A stretch of DNA of 64,000 nucleotides from an uncultured Faecalicatena sp. (lineage in GTDB: Bacteria; Bacillota; Clostridia; Lachnospirales; Lachnospiraceae). Of this stretch, positions 2,119-63,981 are shown piece by piece. The notes beneath the pieces were generated by a model. The model made no database searches, was not told the origin of the DNA, and saw only the letters and a program-made list of their open reading frames with translations. The stretch's first letter is position 1; each line of letters begins with the position of its first letter. The stretch lies in assembly GCA_948468385.1 (NCBI GenBank), contig CAOKHZ010000016.1, positions 40,028-104,027 of the forward strand, written 5' to 3'. Made by a program: the position numbers and the translations under genes.

Positions 2119-3675
2119 ATGGAACTGGTACAGAAACGTATTCATTACATGCAGGAGGGCAGGCGCACCTTCGACCAATTTTATTTAGACGAGGACGTCA
2201 ACGTCCCCGATGCCAAGGAGGATGTCGGCATAATCGTGCAGGGGCAGGCGAACGTGAAGGTGGAGGATCTTCGCCTGGTGGAAAATTATCTGCGCGTGGC
2301 GGGAAAGCTGTACTATCAGATTCTTTACATTACGGACACGGCCGATCCAAGGCCGGCGGTACTTGAAGGGACGTTGCCGTTCGAGGAGATGGTGTATGTC
2401 GAAGGTGGCCAGGATCAATTCTACATAGAGAACACGCGCACGGAATTTACGGCCACGCTGGTACATTCCCGCAAGATGAGCGTCCGCGCGATGGTGGAAA
2501 TGGAAATCGGGCGGGAGGTCTTAAGTGACGAGGAGACGACGGTGGACGTGGAGTCTTCCATACCGGTTTATAAAAAGATGCGGCAAATCGCCCTTCTCGG
2601 CTTGCACACCACGAAAAAAGACACGTACCGCATCAAGGAGGAAATCACCCTTCCGGGAACAAAGGAAAGCGTAGGGCAGATGTTGGTGACGGACGTGAAA
2701 AGCCGCCGTCTGGAAATACGCGTACAACAAGATGAGCTGATATTGCAGGGGGAAATCTTGTTGTTCTGCATGTATTTGTCCGAAGACGGAAAGACTGACT
2801 GGGTAGAGCAAAGCATTCCTTACAGCGGGCGCATTGCATGCAGTGGCGTGGAAGAGGGAATGTATTATCATGTGCAGCCGTCACTCTCCGACAGCCTGAT
2901 TGACGTTCGTCTGGACGAGGACGGGGAGATGCGCGTGTTGGGCGTGGAGGCGACGCTGGGGCTTAAGATGAACATTTATAAGGAAGAAAATATAGAGCTT
3001 TTGGAGGATATGTATTCGCTGGAGCAGGAATGCCGCTTTGAAACCAGGGGAGCGGTTTATGAGGAATTAATGATTCAGAACCATTCGAAATGCAAGATTT
3101 CCGAGCGCCTTTCGTTGCCGGAGCTTGGCGACGACGTGCTGCAAATCTGTCACAGTGACGGGATGATACAGATTGACCATACGGAAGTGGAGGAAGGCGG
3201 GGTACGTCTGGAAGGCATTTTGCATTTAAGCTTTCTTTATTTGCGGGCGAACGACACCCAGCCGTTCGGGAGTTGGCAGGGAATGGTGCCGTTTTCCTGG
3301 TTATTGGAATGCCAGGGAATCGCGGATGACGACAGATGTGACATTTCCCGCCATGTGGAGCAGTTGTCAGTGAATCTGGCCGGAAACGAGGCGGTGGAAA
3401 TCAAGGCGGTACTGGCGTTTGACACCTTGGTTCGCAGGCCGATTACGATGCAGGTCATTACCCGGGTAGAATTCGCCCCGGTATCGGAGGAAGAAGTCGC
3501 GCGCGCGCCCGGCATCGTCGGATATATCGTAAAAAGCGGCGACGAGCTTTGGACGCTTGCCAAGCGGTATCGCACGACGGAAGAAGGCATTCGGGAAATG
3601 AACGGGCTGGATTCCTCACAAATAAGGGAAGGTGAAAAATTATTGATTTTTAAAGAGAATATGAGTATACTATAA
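2119..3675 (+). CDS. SPOCS (DUF3794) and LysM domain spore protein
   Basis: This 518-residue protein starts at the ATG at 2119, behind a strong AAGGAGG (2107-2113). It contains repeated SPOCS/DUF3794 units; one reads ITLPGTKESVGQMLVTDVKSR, and the N terminus has the related YLDEDVNVPDAKEDVG. It ends in a LysM domain (YIVKSGDELWTLAKRYRT, then INGLDSSQIREGEKLLIF-like residues). SPOCS domains are found in spore-coat and spore-envelope proteins, and LysM binds peptidoglycan. The likely role is a structural protein anchored at the spore cortex or coat. It follows the lipoprotein gene closely and precedes ispE by 36 bp. Confidence 0.85.
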   Translation: MELVQKRIHYMQEGRRTFDQFYLDEDVNVPDAKEDVGIIVQGQANVKVEDLRLVENYLRVAGKLYYQILYITDTADPRPAVLEGTLPFEEMVYVEGGQDQFYIENTRTEFTATLVHSRKMSVRAMVEMEIGREVLSDEETTVDVESSIPVYKKMRQIALLGLHTTKKDTYRIKEEITLPGTKESVGQMLVTDVKSRRLEIRVQQDELILQGEILLFCMYLSEDGKTDWVEQSIPYSGRIACSGVEEGMYYHVQPSLSDSLIDVRLDEDGEMRVLGVEATLGLKMNIYKEENIELLEDMYSLEQECRFETRGAVYEELMIQNHSKCKISERLSLPELGDDVLQICHSDGMIQIDHTEVEEGGVRLEGILHLSFLYLRANDTQPFGSWQGMVPFSWLLECQGIADDDRCDISRHVEQLSVNLAGNEAVEIKAVLAFDTLVRRPITMQVITRVEFAPVSEEEVARAPGIVGYIVKSGDELWTLAKRYRTTEEGIREMNGLDSSQIREGEKLLIFKENMSIL

Positions 3676-3711: not shown

Positions 3712-4590
3712 ATGAGAAAACTGGTTTTAAAAGCCCTGGCGAAAATCAACCTGGGGCTTGACGTACTAGGGAGAAGGGAAAACGGATATCATGACGTGCG
3801 CATGGTCATGCAGTCTATTTATCTTTATGACGAAGTCGTGATGGAGGTTAAGTCTGCGCCGGGAATTTCGCTCCGGACGAATTTGTCGTTTTTGCCGACC
3901 GGGGAGGGAAACATTGCCTACAATGCGGCGGCGATGCTTCAGAAGGAGTTCGGCCTGACGGAGGGCGTGCGCGTCACGCTTGACAAACGTATTCCGGTGG
4001 CGGCCGGAATGGCGGGGGGAAGTTCCGACGCGGCCGCGGTGCTGTTCGGGATGAATCGCTTGTTTGAACTGGGGCTTACGCAGGAGCAATTGATGGAGCG
4101 GGGGGCGCTCCTTGGCGCGGACGTTCCATACTGCATCATGCGGGGGACGGTGCTGGCAGAGGGAATCGGTGAAAAGCTCACCCCCCTTCCGGCGATGCCC
4201 AAGTGCACGGTGCTGGTAGCCAAACCGCCGGTCAGCGTGTCCACCAGGGTGGTGTACGAGGCTTTGGACGCGGGGAAAATTGAGAAACATCCCGATATTG
4301 ACGGGTTGATTGCAGGACTTGAAAAAAAGGATTTAAGGAAAATTGCCTCTTGCATGGGGAACGTGTTGGAGGACGTGACGATTCCGATGTGCCCGGTCAT
4401 CGAGCAGATTCGCGGGGAAATGTTGGAAGCGGGCGCGCTAGGCGCGATGATGAGCGGTAGCGGTCCCACGGTGTTTGGCCTTTTCGGGGATAAGCTGGCG
4501 GCCATCAAGGCGCAGGAAAATATCAGGAAAAAGGCACTTGCCAGACAGGTTTATATTACGAACGTGCATAGTGCGAGGAGGGACAAATGA
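3712..4590 (+). CDS. ispE: 4-diphosphocytidyl-2-C-methyl-D-erythritol kinase
   Basis: The 292-residue GHMP kinase phosphorylates CDP-methylerythritol at the 2-hydroxyl, the fourth step of the MEP isoprenoid pathway, in the cytosol. Visible motifs are the N-terminal LKALAKINLGLDVLGRREDGYH-like segment with active-site Lys, the ATP-binding loop PVAAGMAGGSSDAAA, and the C-terminal MMSGSGPTVFGLF. Length fits the family. The ATG at 3712 has GGAG 8 bp upstream and is preferred over an in-frame start at the very end of the spore-protein gene. The stop overlaps the next gene by four bases (ATGA), indicating translational coupling. Confidence 0.95.
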   Translation: MRKLVLKALAKINLGLDVLGRRENGYHDVRMVMQSIYLYDEVVMEVKSAPGISLRTNLSFLPTGEGNIAYNAAAMLQKEFGLTEGVRVTLDKRIPVAAGMAGGSSDAAAVLFGMNRLFELGLTQEQLMERGALLGADVPYCIMRGTVLAEGIGEKLTPLPAMPKCTVLVAKPPVSVSTRVVYEALDAGKIEKHPDIDGLIAGLEKKDLRKIASCMGNVLEDVTIPMCPVIEQIRGEMLEAGALGAMMSGSGPTVFGLFGDKLAAIKAQENIRKKALARQVYITNVHSARRDK

Positions 4591-5261
4591 CGGATTTGAA
4601 GTTCGAGGCTTCCATGAGCGAGTACCTGCCGCTTCGCGACGTTGTGTTCAACACGCTGCGGCAGGCTATTTTGCGTGGGGACTTGAAGCCGGGGGAGCGT
4701 TTGATGGAAATTTCACTGGCGAACAAACTGGGGGTCAGCCGCACGCCGGTGCGCGAGGCCATCCACAAGCTGGAACAAGAAGGATTGGTATTGATGATAC
4801 CGCGCCGGGGGGCCGAGGTGGCGCAGATTACCGAGAAGAGCCTGCGGGACGTCCTGGAGGTGAGAGGGGCATTGGAGGAATTGGCCGTGCGGCTGGCTTG
4901 CGAGCGCATGACGGAGCGGGCGCTTGGGGAGTTGAACCAGGCGGCGGAGGCATTTGAAAAAATTCTCGGGGATTCGGACATTACGGCGGTGGCCGAGGCG
5001 GACGTGGCCTTTCACGACGTGATTTATATGGCGACGGACAACCAGCGCCTGATCGCGCTTTTGAATAATTTGCGGGAGCAGATGTACCGTTACCGTGTGG
5101 AATATTTGAAGCGCAGGGAATGTCACGCGCAACTGCTATCGGAACATCAGGAGATTATTGCGGCCATTACGAATAAGGAAGTGGAACGGGCGGTGGAGGT
5201 GACTTGCCGCCACATTGACAACCAGGTGGAAGCCGTGAGTGACACGATACGGCAGCTGTAG
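4587..5261 (+). CDS. GntR-family regulator with FCD domain
   Basis: The 224-residue product has an N-terminal winged helix (residues about 12-75, with LANKLGVSRTPVREAIHKLEQEGLV) and a C-terminal all-helical FCD ligand-binding domain (residues about 85-215). FCD metal or ligand residues are suggested by AEADVAFHDVIY and the later HQEIIAAI and CRHIDNQ. It overlaps ispE by four bases. The ligand cannot be read from sequence; FCD members usually sense organic acids or sugar acids. No matching operator was recognised nearby. Confidence 0.9.
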   Translation: MTDLKFEASMSEYLPLRDVVFNTLRQAILRGDLKPGERLMEISLANKLGVSRTPVREAIHKLEQEGLVLMIPRRGAEVAQITEKSLRDVLEVRGALEELAVRLACERMTERALGELNQAAEAFEKILGDSDITAVAEADVAFHDVIYMATDNQRLIALLNNLREQMYRYRVEYLKRRECHAQLLSEHQEIIAAITNKEVERAVEVTCRHIDNQVEAVSDTIRQL

Positions 5262-5472
5262 CGGCGCGCGCCGTAGATGCGCGGTTTGTAACAATTTACC
5301 CCACATGTCGGCTTGGGGGGGATGCCCGTGAAAGGAAAGTACGCCAAAAAATGGGATTTCATGGTGTATATTTTCCGTTGAATATGTAAATACTCCCAAC
5401 ATCAAAAAATTAAGAGGCATTGCGATGGAAGTGTTTTGCGGATGCCATGAATGATGAAGGGAGTTACATAAA

Positions 5473-6252
5473 ATGTGGAAGGACAGATGGGAGCAATATA
5501 AGGAAAAATGCGGGCAATATAAGGAACAATATGGGAAATCGCACGATGGGCATGCCGGTGCTTTCTCCCGGGCGCGGCGCGGAAAGGTACCTGGCGGTCG
5601 GCGTGACATCCGGCTTGGGGCGCGTCTGGCAATTCTGGCAGCCGCGTTTTTGATGGCGGGATTTGTCTGCGGGATGACGTTTTATCAGCGGCAGCAGATG
5701 ATGCAGGAACAAGCACAGCAGCATTTGGCACAAGAGGTGTTGCGTTTTCATGTGTTGGCGAACAGCGACGACGAGGCGGATCAGCGGTTGAAAATCGAGG
5801 TGCGCGACGCGGTGCTTGCATACATCGAGGAGGCGATGCCAAGTGAGAAGTCCGGCGAGAGCGATATGGACGTGGAGCAGACGAAGGATTGGATGCGAAA
5901 ACACGTGGACGACATTGAAAAAATCGGGGCGGACGTGGTCTGCGCGGCCGGGTATGACTATCCGGTGAACGCCGCCGTCACGACTTGTTGGTTTCCTGAC
6001 AAGACGTATGGGGACGTGACGTTTCCGGCAGGAAATTATGAGGCGCTGCGGGTTGAAATCGGGGCGGCGAAAGGACACAACTGGTGGTGCGTGCTGTATC
6101 CGGGATTGTGCTTTTTGGATTCGGCCAACGCGGTGGTACCCGACGAAGGAAAGGAAGAACTGCGAAACGTCCTTACCGAGGAAGAATACGAGCGAGTCAC
6201 GGTCGATACGAAATTTGAAATCAAGTGGTTTTTCCTGGATTTTTTGAATTAG
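5473..6252 (+). CDS. spoIIR: Stage II sporulation protein R
   Basis: SpoIIR is made in the forespore and signals to SpoIIGA so that pro-sigma-E is processed in the mother cell. The 259-residue product has a membrane segment at residues about 50-68 (LAILAAAFLMAGFVCGMTF), then the conserved secreted part with VLRFHVLANSDDEADQRLKIEVRDAV, NWWCVLYPGLCF and the C-terminal KFEIKWFFLDFL. The N terminus is longer than usual and contains a 21-bp tandem duplication (5494-5535). A GAAGGGAG sequence lies about 11 bp before the ATG. The 211 bp upstream shows no convincing sigma-G/F promoter that I can assign. Confidence 0.92.
   Translation: MWKDRWEQYKEKCGQYKEQYGKSHDGHAGAFSRARRGKVPGGRRDIRLGARLAILAAAFLMAGFVCGMTFYQRQQMMQEQAQQHLAQEVLRFHVLANSDDEADQRLKIEVRDAVLAYIEEAMPSEKSGESDMDVEQTKDWMRKHVDDIEKIGADVVCAAGYDYPVNAAVTTCWFPDKTYGDVTFPAGNYEALRVEIGAAKGHNWWCVLYPGLCFLDSANAVVPDEGKEELRNVLTEEEYERVTVDTKFEIKWFFLDFLN
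5494..5535 (+). repeat. 21-bp tandem duplication in the 5' end of spoIIR
   Basis: Two 21-bp units (5494-5514 and 5515-5535), each beginning CAATATAAGGAA, encode QYKEKCG and QYKEQYG. The length is a multiple of three, so the frame is kept. Confidence 0.75.
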
Positions 6253-6269
6253 GGTTACGGTTCATGGTC

Positions 6270-6333
6270 GGATGAAACTTGACAAGTCGTTTCGCAAGCC
6301 TGCTTGCGTGAAGCCGCTTTTCAAGTTTCATCC
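6270..6333. repeat. Interrupted inverted repeat between spoIIR and the CDF gene
   Basis: Outer arms GGATGAAACTTGA (6270-6282) and TCAAGTTTCATCC (6321-6333) are perfectly complementary, and an inner CGCAAGC/GCTTGCG hairpin sits at the centre (6293-6307). There is no T-tract, so a standard terminator is unlikely; a cruciform, an RNA processing stem or a binding site are alternatives. Confidence 0.7.
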
Positions 6334-6413
6334 AATCGTAATCAAGAAGAGAAGCGGCCGCGTTTTTCCGGGACGTCTGGAATACGGCAGAAGGAGCTTG
6401 AAGGAGAGGGGAC

Positions 6414-57952: not shown

Positions 57953-59500
57953 TTGAAAAACGAATTGGTAATTGTTCTTGACTTTGGCGGTCAGTATAAT
58001 CAACTGGTCGCAAGGCGGGTGAGGGAATGTAATGTATATTGTGAAATATATTCTTACAAGACGGACATCGAAAAGATTAAGGCGATGAATCCAAAAGGAA
58101 TTATTTTGACCGGAGGGCCGAACAGTTGTTATGAGGCGGGCGCGCCAACTTATACGAAGGAACTGTTTGAACTGGGAATTCCAGTGCTGGGCTTGTGTTA
58201 TGGCGCACAGCTTATGATGTTCGTGTTGGGCGGAGAGGTCAAGTCGGCACCCGTGCGGGAATATGGAAAAACGGAAGTGCTGATTGATAAGGCGGAGTCC
58301 AAGCTCTTTGCCGGAGTGCCCGCTTCAACGATTTGCTGGATGAGCCATTTTGATTATATCTCTCGAATCGCGCCGGGGTTCGAGATAAGTGCACACACGA
58401 AGGATTGCCCGGTGGCAACCGCGGAAAACGAGGAAAAAGCATTGTATGCGATACAATTTCATCCGGAAGTGTTACATACGCAGGATGGCACGAAAATAAT
58501 CAATAATTTCGTGAAAACTGTTTGTGGATGCACGGGTGACTGGAAGATGGACGCGTTCGTGGAAGAGACGATACAAGCCATCCGTGAAAAAGTCGGAGAC
58601 GGAAAAGTACTTTGCGCGTTGTCCGGCGGGGTGGATTCTTCCGTGGCGGCAGTGTTGATTGCCAAAGCCATCGGTTCCCAGCTGACCTGCGTGTTTGTAG
58701 ACCATGGCTTGCTGCGTAAGGACGAGGGCGATGAAGTGGAGGCGGTCTTCGGAGCCAACGGTTCTTATAACCTGAATTTTATCCGGGTGAACGCGCAGGA
58801 ACGTTTTTATGCTAAACTCGCCGGGGTGGAAGAGCCAGAGGCAAAAAGGAAAATTATCGGCGAAGAGTTCATTCGTGTTTTTGAGGAAGAAGCGAAAAAA
58901 ATCGGCGCGGTGGACTTCCTCGTACAAGGAACCATTTATCCCGACGTCGTGGAAAGCGGTTTGGGTGGCGAATCCGCAGTGATTAAATCCCACCACAACG
59001 TGGGCGGCCTGCCGGATTACGTCAATTTCAAGGAAATTATCGAGCCGTTACGCGACTTGTTCAAAGATGAAGTTCGAAAGGCCGGCTTAGAGCTTGGCAT
59101 CCCGGAGCACCTTGTATTTCGCCAGCCCTTCCCGGGACCGGGACTGGGCATCCGTATCGTCGGCGAGGTGACGGCGGAAAAGGTTCGGATGATTCAGGAC
59201 GCGGATGCGATTTACCGCGAGGAAATCGCGACGGCCGGATTGGACAAGGAAATCAACCAATACTTTGCGGCATTGACCAACATGCGCAGCGTCGGCGTGA
59301 TGGGGGACGAGAGAACCTATGACTACGCCGTGGTTTTGCGGGGGGTGAATACGATAGACTTCATGACGGCCGAGGCGGCACAGATACCGTATGAGGTGCT
59401 GGGCAAGGTGATGAGCAGGATTATAAATGAAGTGAAAGGGGTAAATCGGGTGTTCTATGATCTGACGAGTAAGCCGCCGGGGACGATAGAGTTCGAATAG
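57953..59500 (+). CDS. guaA: GMP synthase (glutamine-hydrolysing)
   Basis: The 515-residue enzyme converts XMP to GMP. The N-terminal glutaminase has [18 protein letters not shown] and the nucleophile Cys82 in [13 protein letters not shown] completes the triad. The ATP-pyrophosphatase domain has [11 protein letters not shown], and the C-terminal dimer domain ends [11 protein letters not shown]. It starts with TTG at 57953 after AGGAGG. The 3' end of guaA is a known integration target for mobile elements, and foreign DNA begins right after it. Confidence 0.97.
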
Positions 59501-59559: not shown

Positions 59560-59578
59560 TGATACCTTTTTGATACCT
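59560..59578. repeat. TGATACCT direct repeat at the guaA/island junction
   Basis: TGATACCT occurs at 59560-59567 and 59571-59578, 11 bp apart, i.e. one helical turn. Short phased repeats next to an insertion junction are what integrase arm-type sites look like; this remains inference. Confidence 0.45.
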
Positions 59579-59598
59579 AAATGAAAATTTATGTTTAA

Positions 59599-61431
59599 TT
59601 ATTGTATTTTGGCTTGTAATATATTTGTTAAAATTTCTTTGAGGACAATAATTTCCATACTTTTAATTTGCGAACTGCTTGGTATCAATTGGTAACTTTT
59701 GTATAAAGTATTTTTAAACTGTTCGTCGTAGGAAGCAAAGTAATCGTTTGGGTTGACAGTCAATTTAGTGTCGAAATCTTCGATATCATTAACAATGTCA
59801 TTAGTTTTTAAGTTTATATCGTAGCAAATGAAACGGTCAATATATCTAAAAGGATGGTTGATTTTTTTGTTTAATGTTCCTTTTAACTCAATATATTTTG
59901 GTGTACCATTGATGTCCACAACAAAATCAATCCCTTTTGAAGTATTGTAATCCAAAAGATTAAAAGTAAATAATTTTGGATATAATGTCATGATTTGGAT
60001 TAACAGAATCATGGTTTCTGATTCTGAATAACCTGTTTTTAACTTTGTGGGTTCTAATAGGGTGCGTCCACAAGGTAATATAATTGTTTTTCGTTGTTGC
60101 GAAAGTTTGTTCCTTATTTGCAAATCGGTATGGTCATTTTCTATAGATTTGATTTGCTTTTCTAATTGTTCCATTTCGGAACGTTCATTCATCAAGGATT
60201 TGATGCTGTTATCATTTAGTATTGCATTAAGTTGAGATTTTATTATCTCGATTTTTTCTATTTCTGAATTTTGTATGGAACCTCTATTAGCGGTTAATTG
60301 GAAATCATCACAATCTATGAAAGCCTGCATATATGTATAGGAACCGCTACCTTTACCACCCTCTATCCAATCATCTACTTTTTCTACGGGTACACCGCCT
60401 TTACATACCCATAGTCCATAACGTTCACTATCAGTATGCGTTAATTCATTACGAGTACGTCCGCGTTTGCTTAATAGTATATCGTATTTTCGTTTTGTCT
60501 CATATCCTTCAAGATGAATGATGAGTCTAAATGATGTGTTATTGCTACAAACTACAGTGTCATTGTAAATGGTGCGTGAATAATAGTCATAATAAGCCTT
60601 ATTACTTTTAATTGTTTTTGCATAAGATTTCATAGCTGTATCAGAATGTCTGTTAGGAGGAAAGTAGTGTCCTAATGTAATTACTTCGTAGTTAATTTTA
60701 TTGACTGACTCAAAAATTGGAATGGGATCAATCATATCAAGGGAACAGTAACTTCTACAAAAATCATCTTGCTTCAAACCAGCTAAATAGAGTTTGATAT
60801 TTTTAGATTGTAAGTTTTTATCAAAAAGAGGACGCAAACTACCAATTACAGTATACCATTTAATATAATCACGTAAATATGCATGATTTAATTTGAATTT
60901 AGTGTGCTGAGTATTGAAATGGCGCGGAGCGATTATTCTAACCATAAACCCTTGTTCCCAATCTGCAGGTAATGAAATACCTAATGTTGTTGCATCGAAT
61001 ATATCAGAATAAGAATATATATTTTTTCTTTCCAGTTGTTCAAGTGGTGAATCTAACTCTACAGCCCATTCCTCTGAATGGTTTTTTGTGCAAATATGTA
61101 TTTTGCTTGCATTAAAGAAAATTTTTGAACCATGTCCTTTATAACCAAGTTTTCCCTCGAGGGGCATGTTATCTTCGTTTATTTTTGTTGATTTTGCTAG
61201 GCCAAAGAAGTTGTCAATATTTTCTTTTTTTAGAGGCTCGCCATTGTTCCATATGTCAATAATAAGCTCGGTGCCGCTCATACGCTTTTTTTCATAAACA
61301 TGACAAAATATTTTTGTGGCATTTTCGTCAAATGCGTTTTGGAATGCTTCTCTAAATATTTCTAAGGGTTCTCCAAAATCAGTAATAATTTGATATAATT
61401 CATATCCTATATTTACTTGTGCATCATTCAT
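59599..61431 (-). CDS. GHKL (MORC/Hsp90-like) ATPase fused to a PD-(D/E)XK-type nuclease
   Basis: The 610-residue minus-strand protein starts with a Bergerat ATPase fold: REAFQNAFDENA (Glu28, Asn32), IDIWNNGEPL (Asp59, Gly64) and GKLGYKGHGSK (residues 93-103). A transducer-like middle follows. Residues about 411-448 look like a coiled coil (MEQLEKQIKSIENDHTDLQ). At the C terminus IDFVVDINGTPKYIELKGT supplies Asp502, Glu515 and Lys517, the D-x12-ExK nuclease pattern. Such an ATPase-nuclease fusion recalls MORC-like proteins of restriction and defence loci. It is AT-rich, follows an XRE regulator gene by 66 bp, and has AAAGGAG before the ATG. Confidence 0.82.
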   Translation of the reverse strand: MNDAQVNIGYELYQIITDFGEPLEIFREAFQNAFDENATKIFCHVYEKKRMSGTELIIDIWNNGEPLKKENIDNFFGLAKSTKINEDNMPLEGKLGYKGHGSKIFFNASKIHICTKNHSEEWAVELDSPLEQLERKNIYSYSDIFDATTLGISLPADWEQGFMVRIIAPRHFNTQHTKFKLNHAYLRDYIKWYTVIGSLRPLFDKNLQSKNIKLYLAGLKQDDFCRSYCSLDMIDPIPIFESVNKINYEVITLGHYFPPNRHSDTAMKSYAKTIKSNKAYYDYYSRTIYNDTVVCSNNTSFRLIIHLEGYETKRKYDILLSKRGRTRNELTHTDSERYGLWVCKGGVPVEKVDDWIEGGKGSGSYTYMQAFIDCDDFQLTANRGSIQNSEIEKIEIIKSQLNAILNDNSIKSLMNERSEMEQLEKQIKSIENDHTDLQIRNKLSQQRKTIILPCGRTLLEPTKLKTGYSESETMILLIQIMTLYPKLFTFNLLDYNTSKGIDFVVDINGTPKYIELKGTLNKKINHPFRYIDRFICYDINLKTNDIVNDIEDFDTKLTVNPNDYFASYDEQFKNTLYKSYQLIPSSSQIKSMEIIVLKEILTNILQAKIQ

Positions 61432-61497
61432 AAGAGTTCTCCTTTGCTAATTATTATAGGCTGTGTGCTATTTTTGAACTTTTATTTGATTCGTTTT

Positions 61498-62055
61498 TCA
61501 TCGAATACTATTATCTTCCTTATCATTTCCCTCTTCATCAACCTTACTACTTGTATCCGGCCAGTTGATTTTCCATTCGAAATACTCGTTTTCTGAAATT
61601 TCTTTGTTCTTCAACTGTTGTTTTCGAAGGCACCATTCGCGCATAAATTCATTGACTAATCCGTAATCAATCCACATACCCACCGGTGCTTGAAGAGACC
61701 AGTCGTCATTGTCGTAGTAATATGCCGACATGTCATAAGAAGTGTTGTACTTGCCGGGGGTGCGAACAAGTTGGAACAAATGAAACATATTGCGGTTGTC
61801 TTCTTCGAGCCAGAAGAATGTAAGCATAATATCTTCGGCACAACCGGGAGTACTGCCGACAAAATGTAAGTAATTGACATTCAATATTTTGGCCATTTCC
61901 ATTAAGGTATCACGTTTAGGAACGCGATAGCCAGACTCGTACTGTGCTACGCGAACATCCGCATTGCGTTCTTCGTATCCCAATTTTAGCCCGAGTTCGC
62001 GTTGGGTCATACCTCGGAATATGCGTATCTTTTTTATTCGTTCTCCTAATACCAT
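61498..62055 (-). CDS. XRE-family regulator of the island
   Basis: The 185-residue protein has an N-terminal HTH (RIKKIRIFRGMTQRELGLKLGYEERNADVRVAQYESGYRVPKRDTL-like) and a C-terminal domain of about 110 residues, with no recognised family, ending in a charged tail. It lies directly upstream of the ATPase-nuclease gene on the same strand and divergent from the excisionase/integrase genes. It may repress both directions, using the TGTTAAG...CTTAACA pair at 62257-62287. AAAGGACG precedes the ATG. Confidence 0.88.
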   Translation of the reverse strand: MVLGERIKKIRIFRGMTQRELGLKLGYEERNADVRVAQYESGYRVPKRDTLMEMAKILNVNYLHFVGSTPGCAEDIMLTFFWLEEDNRNMFHLFQLVRTPGKYNTSYDMSAYYYDNDDWSLQAPVGMWIDYGLVNEFMREWCLRKQQLKNKEISENEYFEWKINWPDTSSKVDEEGNDKEDNSIR

Positions 62056-62240: not shown

Positions 62241-62287
62241 TTGACAATAACAGAAATGTTAAGTATAATGTGAATGGAAACTTAACA
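62241..62287 (+). promoter_or_regulatory. Consensus promoter and operator for excisionase/integrase
   Basis: TTGACA (62241-62246) and TATAAT (62264-62269) are perfect consensus boxes 17 bp apart. An inverted pair TGTTAAG (62257-62263) and CTTAACA (62281-62287) brackets the -10 box. TAAATTTAA is also repeated just upstream (62204-62212 and 62220-62228). Confidence 0.8.
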
Positions 62288-62317: not shown

Positions 62318-62509
62318 ATGAAGAATGAGTTATTTGTAACTGCCGGGGAGGTGGCGCAGGAATTGGGTGTTTCCAAACCTTTTGCTTACAAATTGGTACG
62401 GCAGATGAATGAGGAACTTGAGGAAAGAGGGTTCATCACGATTGCCGGACGTGTGAGCAGAAAATACTACGAAGAAAAATTTTATGGTATGTCGCAAGCG
62501 GCGAGTTAA
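62318..62509 (+). CDS. Excisionase-like small HTH protein
   Basis: The 63-residue protein (FVTAGEVAQELGVSKPFAYKLVRQMNEELEERGFITIAGRVSRKYYEEKFYG) resembles MerR-type/HTH_17 helix-turn-helix proteins that act as excisionases of integrative elements. It lies 12 bp before the integrase gene, behind AAGGGAGGG. It probably directs the integrase toward excision. Confidence 0.85.
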   Translation: MKNELFVTAGEVAQELGVSKPFAYKLVRQMNEELEERGFITIAGRVSRKYYEEKFYGMSQAAS

Positions 62510-62521
62510 AGGAGGGATGTC

Positions 62522-63607
62522 ATGGCGGCATATAAAGATGAAAAGCGTGGAACATGGTATGTATCGTTCCACTATTATGACTGGACAGGAAAGAATTGCC
62601 GAAAGGTCAAGAGAGGTTTTAAGACTAAGCGAGAAGCTACAGAGTGGGAGCATCACTTTCTGATGAAAGAAGCGGATGATTTGGATATGACATTCAAAGA
62701 GTTTGTGCAAGCCTATACAAGAGATATGAAGCCAAAACTAAAACATAATACTTGGCTGACAAAGGAGCACATTATACGTACGAAATTATTACCATACTTT
62801 GGAAACAAAAAAATGCGTGATATCCGTGCCAAAGATGTTATCCAGTGGCAAAATATGCAGATTTCTTATCATAATGAAAAGGGAAAGCCCTATGCACCAA
62901 CTTATTTGAAAACTTTGCAGTCCGAGTTGAGCGCGTTATTCAACCATGCGGTACGATTCTATGAATTAAAAAGCAATCCCGTTGTGAAAGCCGGCCCGCT
63001 TGGAAAGGGGAAAGCGGAGGAAATGCTTTTTTGGACGAAAGAGGAATATCTAAAATTCATTGAAGAGGTTAAAGACAAGCCATGTTCTTATCTGGCATTT
63101 CAGATTTTATATTGGTGTGGTTTACGTGTTGGCGAGCTTTTAGCACTTACGTCGCGGGATATTGATTTTGATAATAAAGTCATTCGAATAACGAAATCAT
63201 ATCAGCGATTAGAGGGAAAGGATGTGATAACAGACCCAAAGACACCGAAAAGTAAACGGAATGTCAGTATGCCGGATTTCTTGTGCGAGGAATTAAAAGA
63301 GTACCTTGGAAAATTGTATGGGATTCTTCCAACTGACCGCATTTTCCACCAAACAAAAAAGTTTTTGCATCATGAGATGACGAGAGGGGCGGAAAAGGCA
63401 GGAGTGAAGCGTATCAGGATTCACGATTTACGGCACTCACATGTTTCACTGCTCATTAGTATGGGATTTTCGGCAGTGTCAATCGGGAATAGAGTAGGGC
63501 ATGAAAGTGTCGATATTACTTATCGTTATGCTCACATGTTTCCGACAGAACAAATGCAAATGGCAGAGTCATTAAATGCAGAATTTAGGGAGGGGGTGAG
63601 ACAATGA
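62522..63607 (+). CDS. int: Tyrosine recombinase (integrase)
   Basis: The 361-residue integrase has an arm-type DNA-binding N terminus (GTWYVSFHYYDWTGKNCRKVKRGFKTKREA-like), a core-binding SAM-like domain (about residues 57-150) and the catalytic domain. Catalytic residues are Arg202 (GLRVGEL), His301 and Arg304 (HDLRHSH), His327 (VGHES) and Tyr336 (TYRYAHMF). It should integrate and excise the element whose left edge is likely at guaA. The stop overlaps the next gene by four bases. Confidence 0.96.
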   Translation: MAAYKDEKRGTWYVSFHYYDWTGKNCRKVKRGFKTKREATEWEHHFLMKEADDLDMTFKEFVQAYTRDMKPKLKHNTWLTKEHIIRTKLLPYFGNKKMRDIRAKDVIQWQNMQISYHNEKGKPYAPTYLKTLQSELSALFNHAVRFYELKSNPVVKAGPLGKGKAEEMLFWTKEEYLKFIEEVKDKPCSYLAFQILYWCGLRVGELLALTSRDIDFDNKVIRITKSYQRLEGKDVITDPKTPKSKRNVSMPDFLCEELKEYLGKLYGILPTDRIFHQTKKFLHHEMTRGAEKAGVKRIRIHDLRHSHVSLLISMGFSAVSIGNRVGHESVDITYRYAHMFPTEQMQMAESLNAEFREGVRQ

Positions 63608-63981
63608 GCGGTGTGCACAAATATCCGACAATTAGTTTTCGTATTTCTCCAAGAGAGCGGAAAGAAATTGAAGCGAAAATTTTCGTGAGTGGTATGAAAA
63701 AGAAAGACTATTTTGTACGTTCTTGTATTTATAACCATGTATGTGTAGTGGGAAAAAAAGAAAACGTATATCAGATTGTGGAGAAATTGCAGGAAATGCA
63801 AAATCGAATAGGAGAGTTGGCAGGACAAGTAAAGGTCGAAAAGCCGGAGATTACTGCCGAAGAAATCAGGGAATTACAAGAGTCCTACGAGGATATGTTA
63901 AAAGCGATTCTTTGGATGTTAGATGGCGCAAAGTATCTGTGGCAGGGAAAAGAAAAAAGCCCCGACAGCGGCAACTGTTAG
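63604..63981 (+). CDS. MobC-like relaxosome accessory protein
   Basis: The 125-residue protein starts with a ribbon-helix-helix-like region (ISFRISPRERKEIEAKIFVSGMKKKDYFVRSCIYNH) as in MobC proteins that help a relaxase open oriT. The second half is a coiled coil (IVEKLQEMQNRIGELAGQV). It overlaps the integrase gene by four bases. A relaxase gene would be expected just beyond the window end. Confidence 0.75.
   Translation: MSGVHKYPTISFRISPRERKEIEAKIFVSGMKKKDYFVRSCIYNHVCVVGKKENVYQIVEKLQEMQNRIGELAGQVKVEKPEITAEEIRELQESYEDMLKAILWMLDGAKYLWQGKEKSPDSGNC

Follow-up and report, generated by a model that had tools for sequence, protein, structure and literature searches.

What is the protein encoded directly behind the 3′ end of guaA in the genome of an uncultured Faecalicatena sp., and what might it do for the mobile element on which it seems to travel? 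In the window (the whole stretch of 64,000 nucleotides that was analysed), its gene occupies positions 59599..61431 on the minus strand as an intact 610-aa open reading frame with an ATG start and no internal stop, with AAAGGAG located a few bases 5′ of this start. A preliminary description had interpreted it as a GHKL ATPase and nuclease-type residues joined in one mobile-element protein, acting in defence or element protection and possibly paired with an XRE-type regulator; the fused anatomy and the defence reading are retained here, while the XRE pairing is abandoned. We consider it probable that this GHKL ATPase-nuclease acts in defence as a single gene and is carried as cargo by a mobilizable element that integrates at guaA.

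A pattern search of genome contigs yielded 113 relatives among 483 candidate stretches, of which 80 were kept, and comparisons were based on a 66-row alignment (A2) and a wider alignment of 86 proteins. The ATPase domain was the sole domain that Pfam recognised in the window protein: HATPase_c_3 matched residues 28–129 (E 5.5e-5; 23.6 bits, slightly below the curated cut-off of 25), HATPase_c matched more weakly, and the NCBIfam sacsin-type ATP-binding domain scored far under its model cut-off. None of the PADLOC models matched the protein at E ≤ 1, and a single-sequence search against solved PDB chains gave no match. HATPase_c_3 was present at E ≤ 0.1 in 65 of the 66 A2 members (best E 2.6e-17), and the 66-member profile reached the ATPase domains of MORC2, MutL and MORC3 (E 3e-5 to 6e-5). 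The Bergerat signature pointed out earlier (i.e., Glu28, Asn32, Gly64 and the GYKGHGSK loop) is present as described, with E28, N32 and G64 in all 82 copies that have letters there (86 aligned), and R27, E28, N32, D35, G64, G99 and G101 are invariant in A2.

The full-length structure model (pLDDT 92.9, pTM 0.83) had 360 PDB matches at E ≤ 0.001, the best 50 of which were Hsp90-type, MORC and SMCHD1 ATPase structures. The matches listed had E-values from 1.9e-14 to 5.5e-11, 11–14% identity, and TM-scores of 0.24–0.42 by model and 0.29–0.54 by target, and the MORC3 ATPase modules aligned over 441–466 columns (gaps included). The best 50 of 589 viral-structure matches (Hsp90, topoisomerase and RIIA-type) likewise corresponded to the ATPase module. 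On the basis of this model, the N-terminal part of the protein would be a GHKL-S5 engine, consisting of a GHKL (Bergerat) domain (residues 1–180, boundary approximate; 60892..61431, minus strand) followed on the same strand by an S5-like middle domain up to around residue 375, the S5 identity being suggested by the matched MORC3 structures, with the MORC and Hsp90 modules matching the full model. A long helix (residues 408–445) lies between the ATPase part and the C-terminal domain in the structure model.

The C-terminal nuclease-like domain (residues 446–610; 59602..60096, minus strand) gave a pLDDT of 96.5 when modelled alone. D502, E515 and K517, from which a nuclease had originally been proposed, turned out to be real and conserved, occurring in 66 of 66 A2 members and in all 78 readable non-haloarchaeal copies (a count that takes in near-duplicates and partial copies, fragment L091 having no letters at the four positions). 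A fourth residue, E470, accompanies them in exactly the same copies (66/66 and 78/78), and the stretch with all four is encoded at 59881..60024 on the minus strand; together with H526, they make up the invariant C-terminal residues of A2. Because retrieval of the relatives relied on two patterns in the N-terminal part, the search itself did not select for this C-terminal conservation. The modelled domain runs through a helix (470–483), strands at 491–496, 501–507, 510–520 and 533–539, and further strands; E470 opens the helix, D502 comes at the beginning of the second strand, and E515 and K517 fall within the third. A PD-(D/E)XK core would show this succession of helix (Glu), strand, strand (Asp) and strand (ExK), but the helix that normally follows the third strand is shrunk to three residues (528–530) in the model. 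A fold search had been suggested as a check: the full model matched MORC and Hsp90 modules, and Foldseek of the C-terminal model against the PDB returned nothing at E ≤ 0.001, the best match being a HIN domain (E 0.13, probability 0.15), followed at E 0.57 by one chain of the LmuAB complex and at E 1.4 by FokI. Taken together, the modelled domain likely adopts a PD-(D/E)XK fold, for which the order of elements fits and the fold search gave no significant match.

A haloarchaeal branch of the family departs from this pattern. All seven haloarchaeal copies (five of which are from Halorubrum, so that they are not independent) lack E470, D502, E515 and K517, with Asp at position 470 in four of them, and all seven keep E28, N32, D62, G64 and G66. 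Such a joint loss is expected if the four residues form one active site. In each of the seven loci (L019, L020, L096–L100), a TGT-type gene (blastp grouping) is located directly upstream of the GHKL relative, preceded in six by a DUF6884-type gene; Pfam confirmed PF01702 in L019 and L020, and PF21818 in L020. With the nuclease residues gone and a base-exchange gene of the TGT type upstream, the same clamp might here be part of a base-modification system, and the branch would amount to a natural separation of clamp from nuclease. A broader proposal, which we put forward tentatively as a possibility, is that these proteins make up an unnamed family of GHKL-gated nucleases, distinct from Shedu and found across many phyla, with the ATPase clamp conserved as the sensor and an exchangeable effector (a base-modification system taking its place in haloarchaea).

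Eight relatives (L021–L028) form a close group with 52–59% identity to the window protein, the other 72 having 22–30%. The contigs of this close group are labelled Lachnospiraceae, Bacillota, Ignavibacteriae, Bacteroidota, Sumerlaeota and one unclassified bacterium, although they are mostly metagenome-assembled and such labels may err. Ten of 299 genomes of the window's family matched; seven of the matches cover residues 21–125 only, and the remaining three are true members, namely the window's genome and two others at 56% identity. Among 398 genomes of its phylum, six matched, i.e., the window's genome, G112, G325, G303 and two with residues 21–123 only. Matches over approximately residues 21–125 only (7/10 and 2/6 genomes) were left out of the family counts before counting. 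Four of these partial matches (L005, L006, L011 and L012) were translated and read as MutL, with a MutS-like frame beside each (by reading, without profile scan); the MutL reading rests on these four, L013–L017 having been excluded without translation. In G303, the C-terminal (L003, 375 aa) and N-terminal (L008, 220 aa) parts of a relative are separate open frames, 1.8 Mb apart. Relatives were also present in three plasmid records; none was found in the phage records searched, and viral contigs yielded zero by single-sequence search and two by alignment search.

A survey of gene neighbourhoods, which had been called for earlier, revealed mixed settings across the wide family. Among 96 neighbours scanned (of 215 listed by a simple ORF caller), no Pfam family recurred above NAD_synthase (four cases; GMP_synt_C in three), and no listed PADLOC family was found in more than two. 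Given this lack of a recurrent partner among the scanned neighbours, the GHKL protein seems to act alone, and the window's cargo slot indeed contains the GHKL gene alone. The same result argues against an accessory role in restriction-modification or mismatch handling, in which the protein would work with a C5 methylase and a Vsr-type nuclease encoded elsewhere, like MutL with MutH/Vsr. This role is suggested by the close relative L026, immediately upstream of which stand genes for a C5 methylase (6.5e-87), a restriction-enzyme-like protein (2.9e-14) and Vsr (3.7e-32), and by the similar, restriction-type neighbourhoods that the available part of Iyer et al. 2008 reports for MORCs and paraMORCs (PMC2292703). 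However, the methylase/Vsr context was found in only one of the eight close loci (L021–L028, some with short flanks), and the slot in the window showed no recognisable methylase, so that we regard such a role as unlikely. Upstream of two other close relatives, different genes were observed: directly upstream in L024, a different GHKL-type protein (4275–6338; 687 aa, weak HATPase_c at E 0.018), and in L023, a frame with weak TIR-effector and nucleoside deoxyribosyltransferase matches (2418–3269).

Behind the 3′ end of guaA (identified in the window by reading of the ORF and in sister loci by homology to GMP synthase-type proteins), the GHKL gene (minus strand) is followed by an XRE-type regulator with an HTH_3 domain (61498..62055, minus strand), an excisionase-like protein (62318..62509, plus strand; NCBIfam ICEBs1 Xis model, 46.7 bits, below the cut-off of 100), a tyrosine integrase (62522..63607, plus strand; Phage_integrase, 2.8e-22) and a NikA-like mobilization protein (63604..63981, plus strand; PF21983, 8.1e-9). 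The integrase and the NikA-like protein exceed the respective Pfam cut-offs, and the Xis-like protein falls below its own; the mobile-element setting put forward earlier is upheld, and the carrier of the GHKL gene is most likely a guaA-integrating mobilizable element. Tn5801 is an element integrated at the guaA 3′ end with 11-bp repeats, according to the part of the source available (PMC4844618), and positional likeness to its site points to a possible 11-bp att core at 59489..59499 (plus strand). The left junction at guaA is clear, and the shared left end of the element, TGATACCTTTTTGATACCT (59560..59578, plus strand), which probably holds integrase arm sites, is identical in six elements compared; across 12 aligned guaA junctions, it is inexact in L125, L169, L170 and L175. 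A search for the right end of the window's element did not find it: the final 27 bases of guaA have a single occurrence in the genome (≤3 mismatches), and the contig stops where the window does. For sister elements, possible right-hand att copies were noted at L191 16349 and L193 9261 (at distances from the end of guaA of approximately 19 kb and 14 kb, respectively), the ~19 kb span of L191 containing a second integrase and perhaps tandem elements. Upstream of the Xis-like gene, a perfect sigma-70-type site (12/12, spacer 17) is located at 62241–62269 on the plus strand of the window. Promoter-like sites numbered 19 (13.4 expected) and terminator-like sites two (1.4 expected).

Eight sister elements (L122–L125 and L164–L167) were defined by ≥76% identity in XRE or ≥84% identity in the integrase. 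Seven of them have integrase and NikA-like genes (L125 having only a 61-aa integrase remnant), seven have XRE (in L124 by XRE search only; none was called in L165), and six have guaA in the examined stretch (all except L165 and L167). Five of the six guaA-associated sister elements have the window's left end, which L125 has lost. In these five, 76–89 of the first 100 bases from the guaA stop match the window, vs. 10–14 of the next 40, the visible break in likeness being the end of TGATACCTTTTTGATACCT, at base 81 from the guaA stop (window 59578). On the right side, likeness between elements stops within approximately 10 bases of the XRE stop codon. These two breaks delimit a cargo slot at 59579..61497. 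The proposal that XRE and GHKL form a two-gene system was rejected, as XRE is 76–80% identical in sister elements with other cargo and the likeness between elements ends near its stop codon; its conservation across cargo swaps marks XRE as an element backbone gene rather than a cargo partner.

The slots of the six guaA-associated sister elements hold a 689-aa protein with a weak mad8 match (5.4e-4; L122), an AAA-type protein of 427 aa (HEC-01A 3.7e-40, AriA 2.1e-28) with a 273-aa protein (L123), a reverse transcriptase (RT_UG31, 1.6e-89; L124), a SIR2 protein (ThsA 1e-26, Dsr2 7.1e-23; L125), a 487-aa protein with a weak PDC-M28C match (1e-6; L164) and a 476-aa protein with no Pfam or PADLOC family match (L166). 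PADLOC matches were thus strong in three, weak in two and absent in one of the six, a tally to be read without a control for the PADLOC rate of arbitrary mobile cargo; the ATPase type of the L123 protein, moreover, is a common one, which accounts for its matches to 130 PADLOC families. Of the sister elements without guaA in the stretch, L165 encodes a NACHT-type protein and gave a weak match to RTasHEPN, and L167 encodes a PDC-M43B-type protein among other genes. Among more distant elements, L175 has AbiU/AIPR (6.9e-111), L172 PDC-S06 (4.9e-110; without guaA in the stretch) and L168 proteins without clear family matches, and no cargo gene was seen in L127, L169, L170, L171, L173 and L174. L126 and L128–L133 (XRE 47–54%, without guaA in the stretch) were left out of the counts; two of these, L132 and L133, have large genes that read like BREX parts (without profile scan) near a distant XRE relative (47–48%). 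Pairwise comparison of ten cargo proteins gave no match at E 0.01, and the GC content of ten cargo genes is 27–32%, next to 40–42% for XRE and integrase and 51% for guaA. The GHKL gene therefore sits at a site of cargo exchange in which defence-type genes are frequent. If the defence reading is right, the guaA-proximal slot in elements of this family, with its unrelated cargo, some of it without clear family, would be a place to look for new defence genes. Weak or no family matches make L122 4187–6256, L164 8345–9808 and L166 5072–6502 candidates for unnamed defence genes.

That the GHKL gene adjoins XRE, xis and int could alternatively point to element housekeeping, i.e., excision control, exclusion of related elements or element maintenance. 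Three of its close relatives have neighbours of this kind (names by reading): genes of excisionase and integrase type for L022 and L027, and one of excisionase type for L021. Nevertheless, the GHKL protein had no match among the ORFs in 10–15 kb of each sister element, so that its gene is missing from the examined stretches of all eight, and its relatives also occur in other settings, which makes housekeeping quite unlikely.

One feature of the ATPase, which the preliminary description did not contain, concerns motif II (residues 62–66, NNGEP; 61234..61248, minus strand), where N62 and P66 replace a near-invariant D and G. Position 62 is D in 79 of 82 copies, with Asn in the window copy and otherwise in L023 and L024 only, and position 66 is G in 81 of 82, Pro being unique to the window copy. 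The motif II Asp of GHKL proteins touches adenine, and Asn might still do so; N62 and P66 lower our confidence in ATP use by the window copy without removing it. That the window copy is in decay or has become independent of nucleotide, its ATPase having lost normal function, as N62 (common to L023 and L024 only) and P66 (unique among 82) might imply, is unlikely, given its full-length open frame, its retention of the other checked motif residues and the nuclease residues, and the occurrence of N62 in two other full-length copies.

Defence is the best reading by slot context. Counted in its favour were the residue conservation, the joint loss of the four residues in haloarchaea, the GHKL-S5 matches (MORC3, MORC2, Hsp90), the slot cargo, the low cargo GC, the lack of a recurrent neighbour, the L026 context and the phage protection known for VcSduA; counted against it were the lack of a PADLOC match, the slot cargo with no (L166) or weak (L122, L164) matches, the mixed neighbourhoods, the altered motif II and the fold search. 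We infer ATP binding by the window copy, DNA clamping, nuclease activity, a target and a defence phenotype as follows. Judging from its anatomy, ATP binding would cause the GHKL-S5 part to dimerise and to close around DNA, and in this closed state the clamp would allow the C-terminal E-D-ExK site to cut. Phage or other incoming DNA would most likely be the target, possibly recognised via a DNA feature such as free ends, topology or missing marks.

How does this protein compare with known systems? Like MutL, it ties a GHKL-S5 ATPase to DNA cutting, but the matches are confined to the ATPase core and the C-terminal domain is another. With MORC ATPases, which together with Hsp90 are its best solved matches, it has the GHKL-S5 module in common. 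MORC tails, however, are CW domains or coiled coils, instead of which the window protein has a nuclease-like tail. MORC membership was rejected, as the MORC motif of S5, GhXhhpXXRhl, was found in none of the 66 A2 members (residues 190–420; 0.2% in shuffled sequences).

A closer likeness is to paraMORC3, which the available text of Iyer et al. 2008 describes as GHKL plus S5 plus a C-terminal E-D-ExK domain, sometimes standalone (PMC2292703). As far as that description goes, the window protein has the same layout, is likewise laterally mobile and also lacks the MORC motif, the comparison being one with the described layout. The window family has the GHKL motifs (HATPase_c_3 in 65/66, D62 in 79/82), an S5-type domain and the E-D-ExK residues (66/66), with the restriction endonuclease fold unmatched at E ≤ 0.001.

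Among proteins with a tested function, the closest in design is VcSduA, a type I-D Shedu protein that, in the parts of Adams et al. 2025 available (PMC12137116), combines an N-terminal GHKL domain and a C-terminal PD-(D/E)xK-type nuclease in one gene. Its catalytic Glu is residue 27 (residue 28 in the window protein), its phage protection is lost with E27A or K557A, and it is carried on a genomic island, as the window gene is on a mobile element. According to the same text, proteins of this layout were earlier annotated as paraMORC3 and are now linked to DUF4263. VcSduA, compared here by description only, has DUF4263 (PF14082), whereas the window family lacks it by Pfam: PF14082 was found at E ≤ 0.1 in none of the 66 A2 members. 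An hhalign comparison with 12 Shedu domains gave probabilities of 0.3–0.5%, a weak negative without a positive control of distant nuclease pairs, in part of which the sole aligned stretch consisted of 12 columns round ExK. Shedu membership by its defining domain was rejected on these grounds, the profile part being the weak one. In 299 phylum genomes, PF14082 occurred at five places in four genomes, in open frames of 149–451 aa, i.e., too short for a GHKL fusion, and ten plasmid Shedu genes measured 228–512 aa.

The preliminary description had recognised no named system. This no longer holds for the layout, which paraMORC3 (2008) and VcSduA (2025) possess according to the available parts of both papers, and still holds in that the family lacks the Shedu domain. 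No activity report for the window family was found in the literature searched, in which few subscription journals were reached. The general design is thus known already, and the window family may be an unnamed branch of it. By analogy, there is a fair probability that the window protein works like VcSduA and, if so, GHKL-gated nucleases would be a broader class than Shedu I-D.
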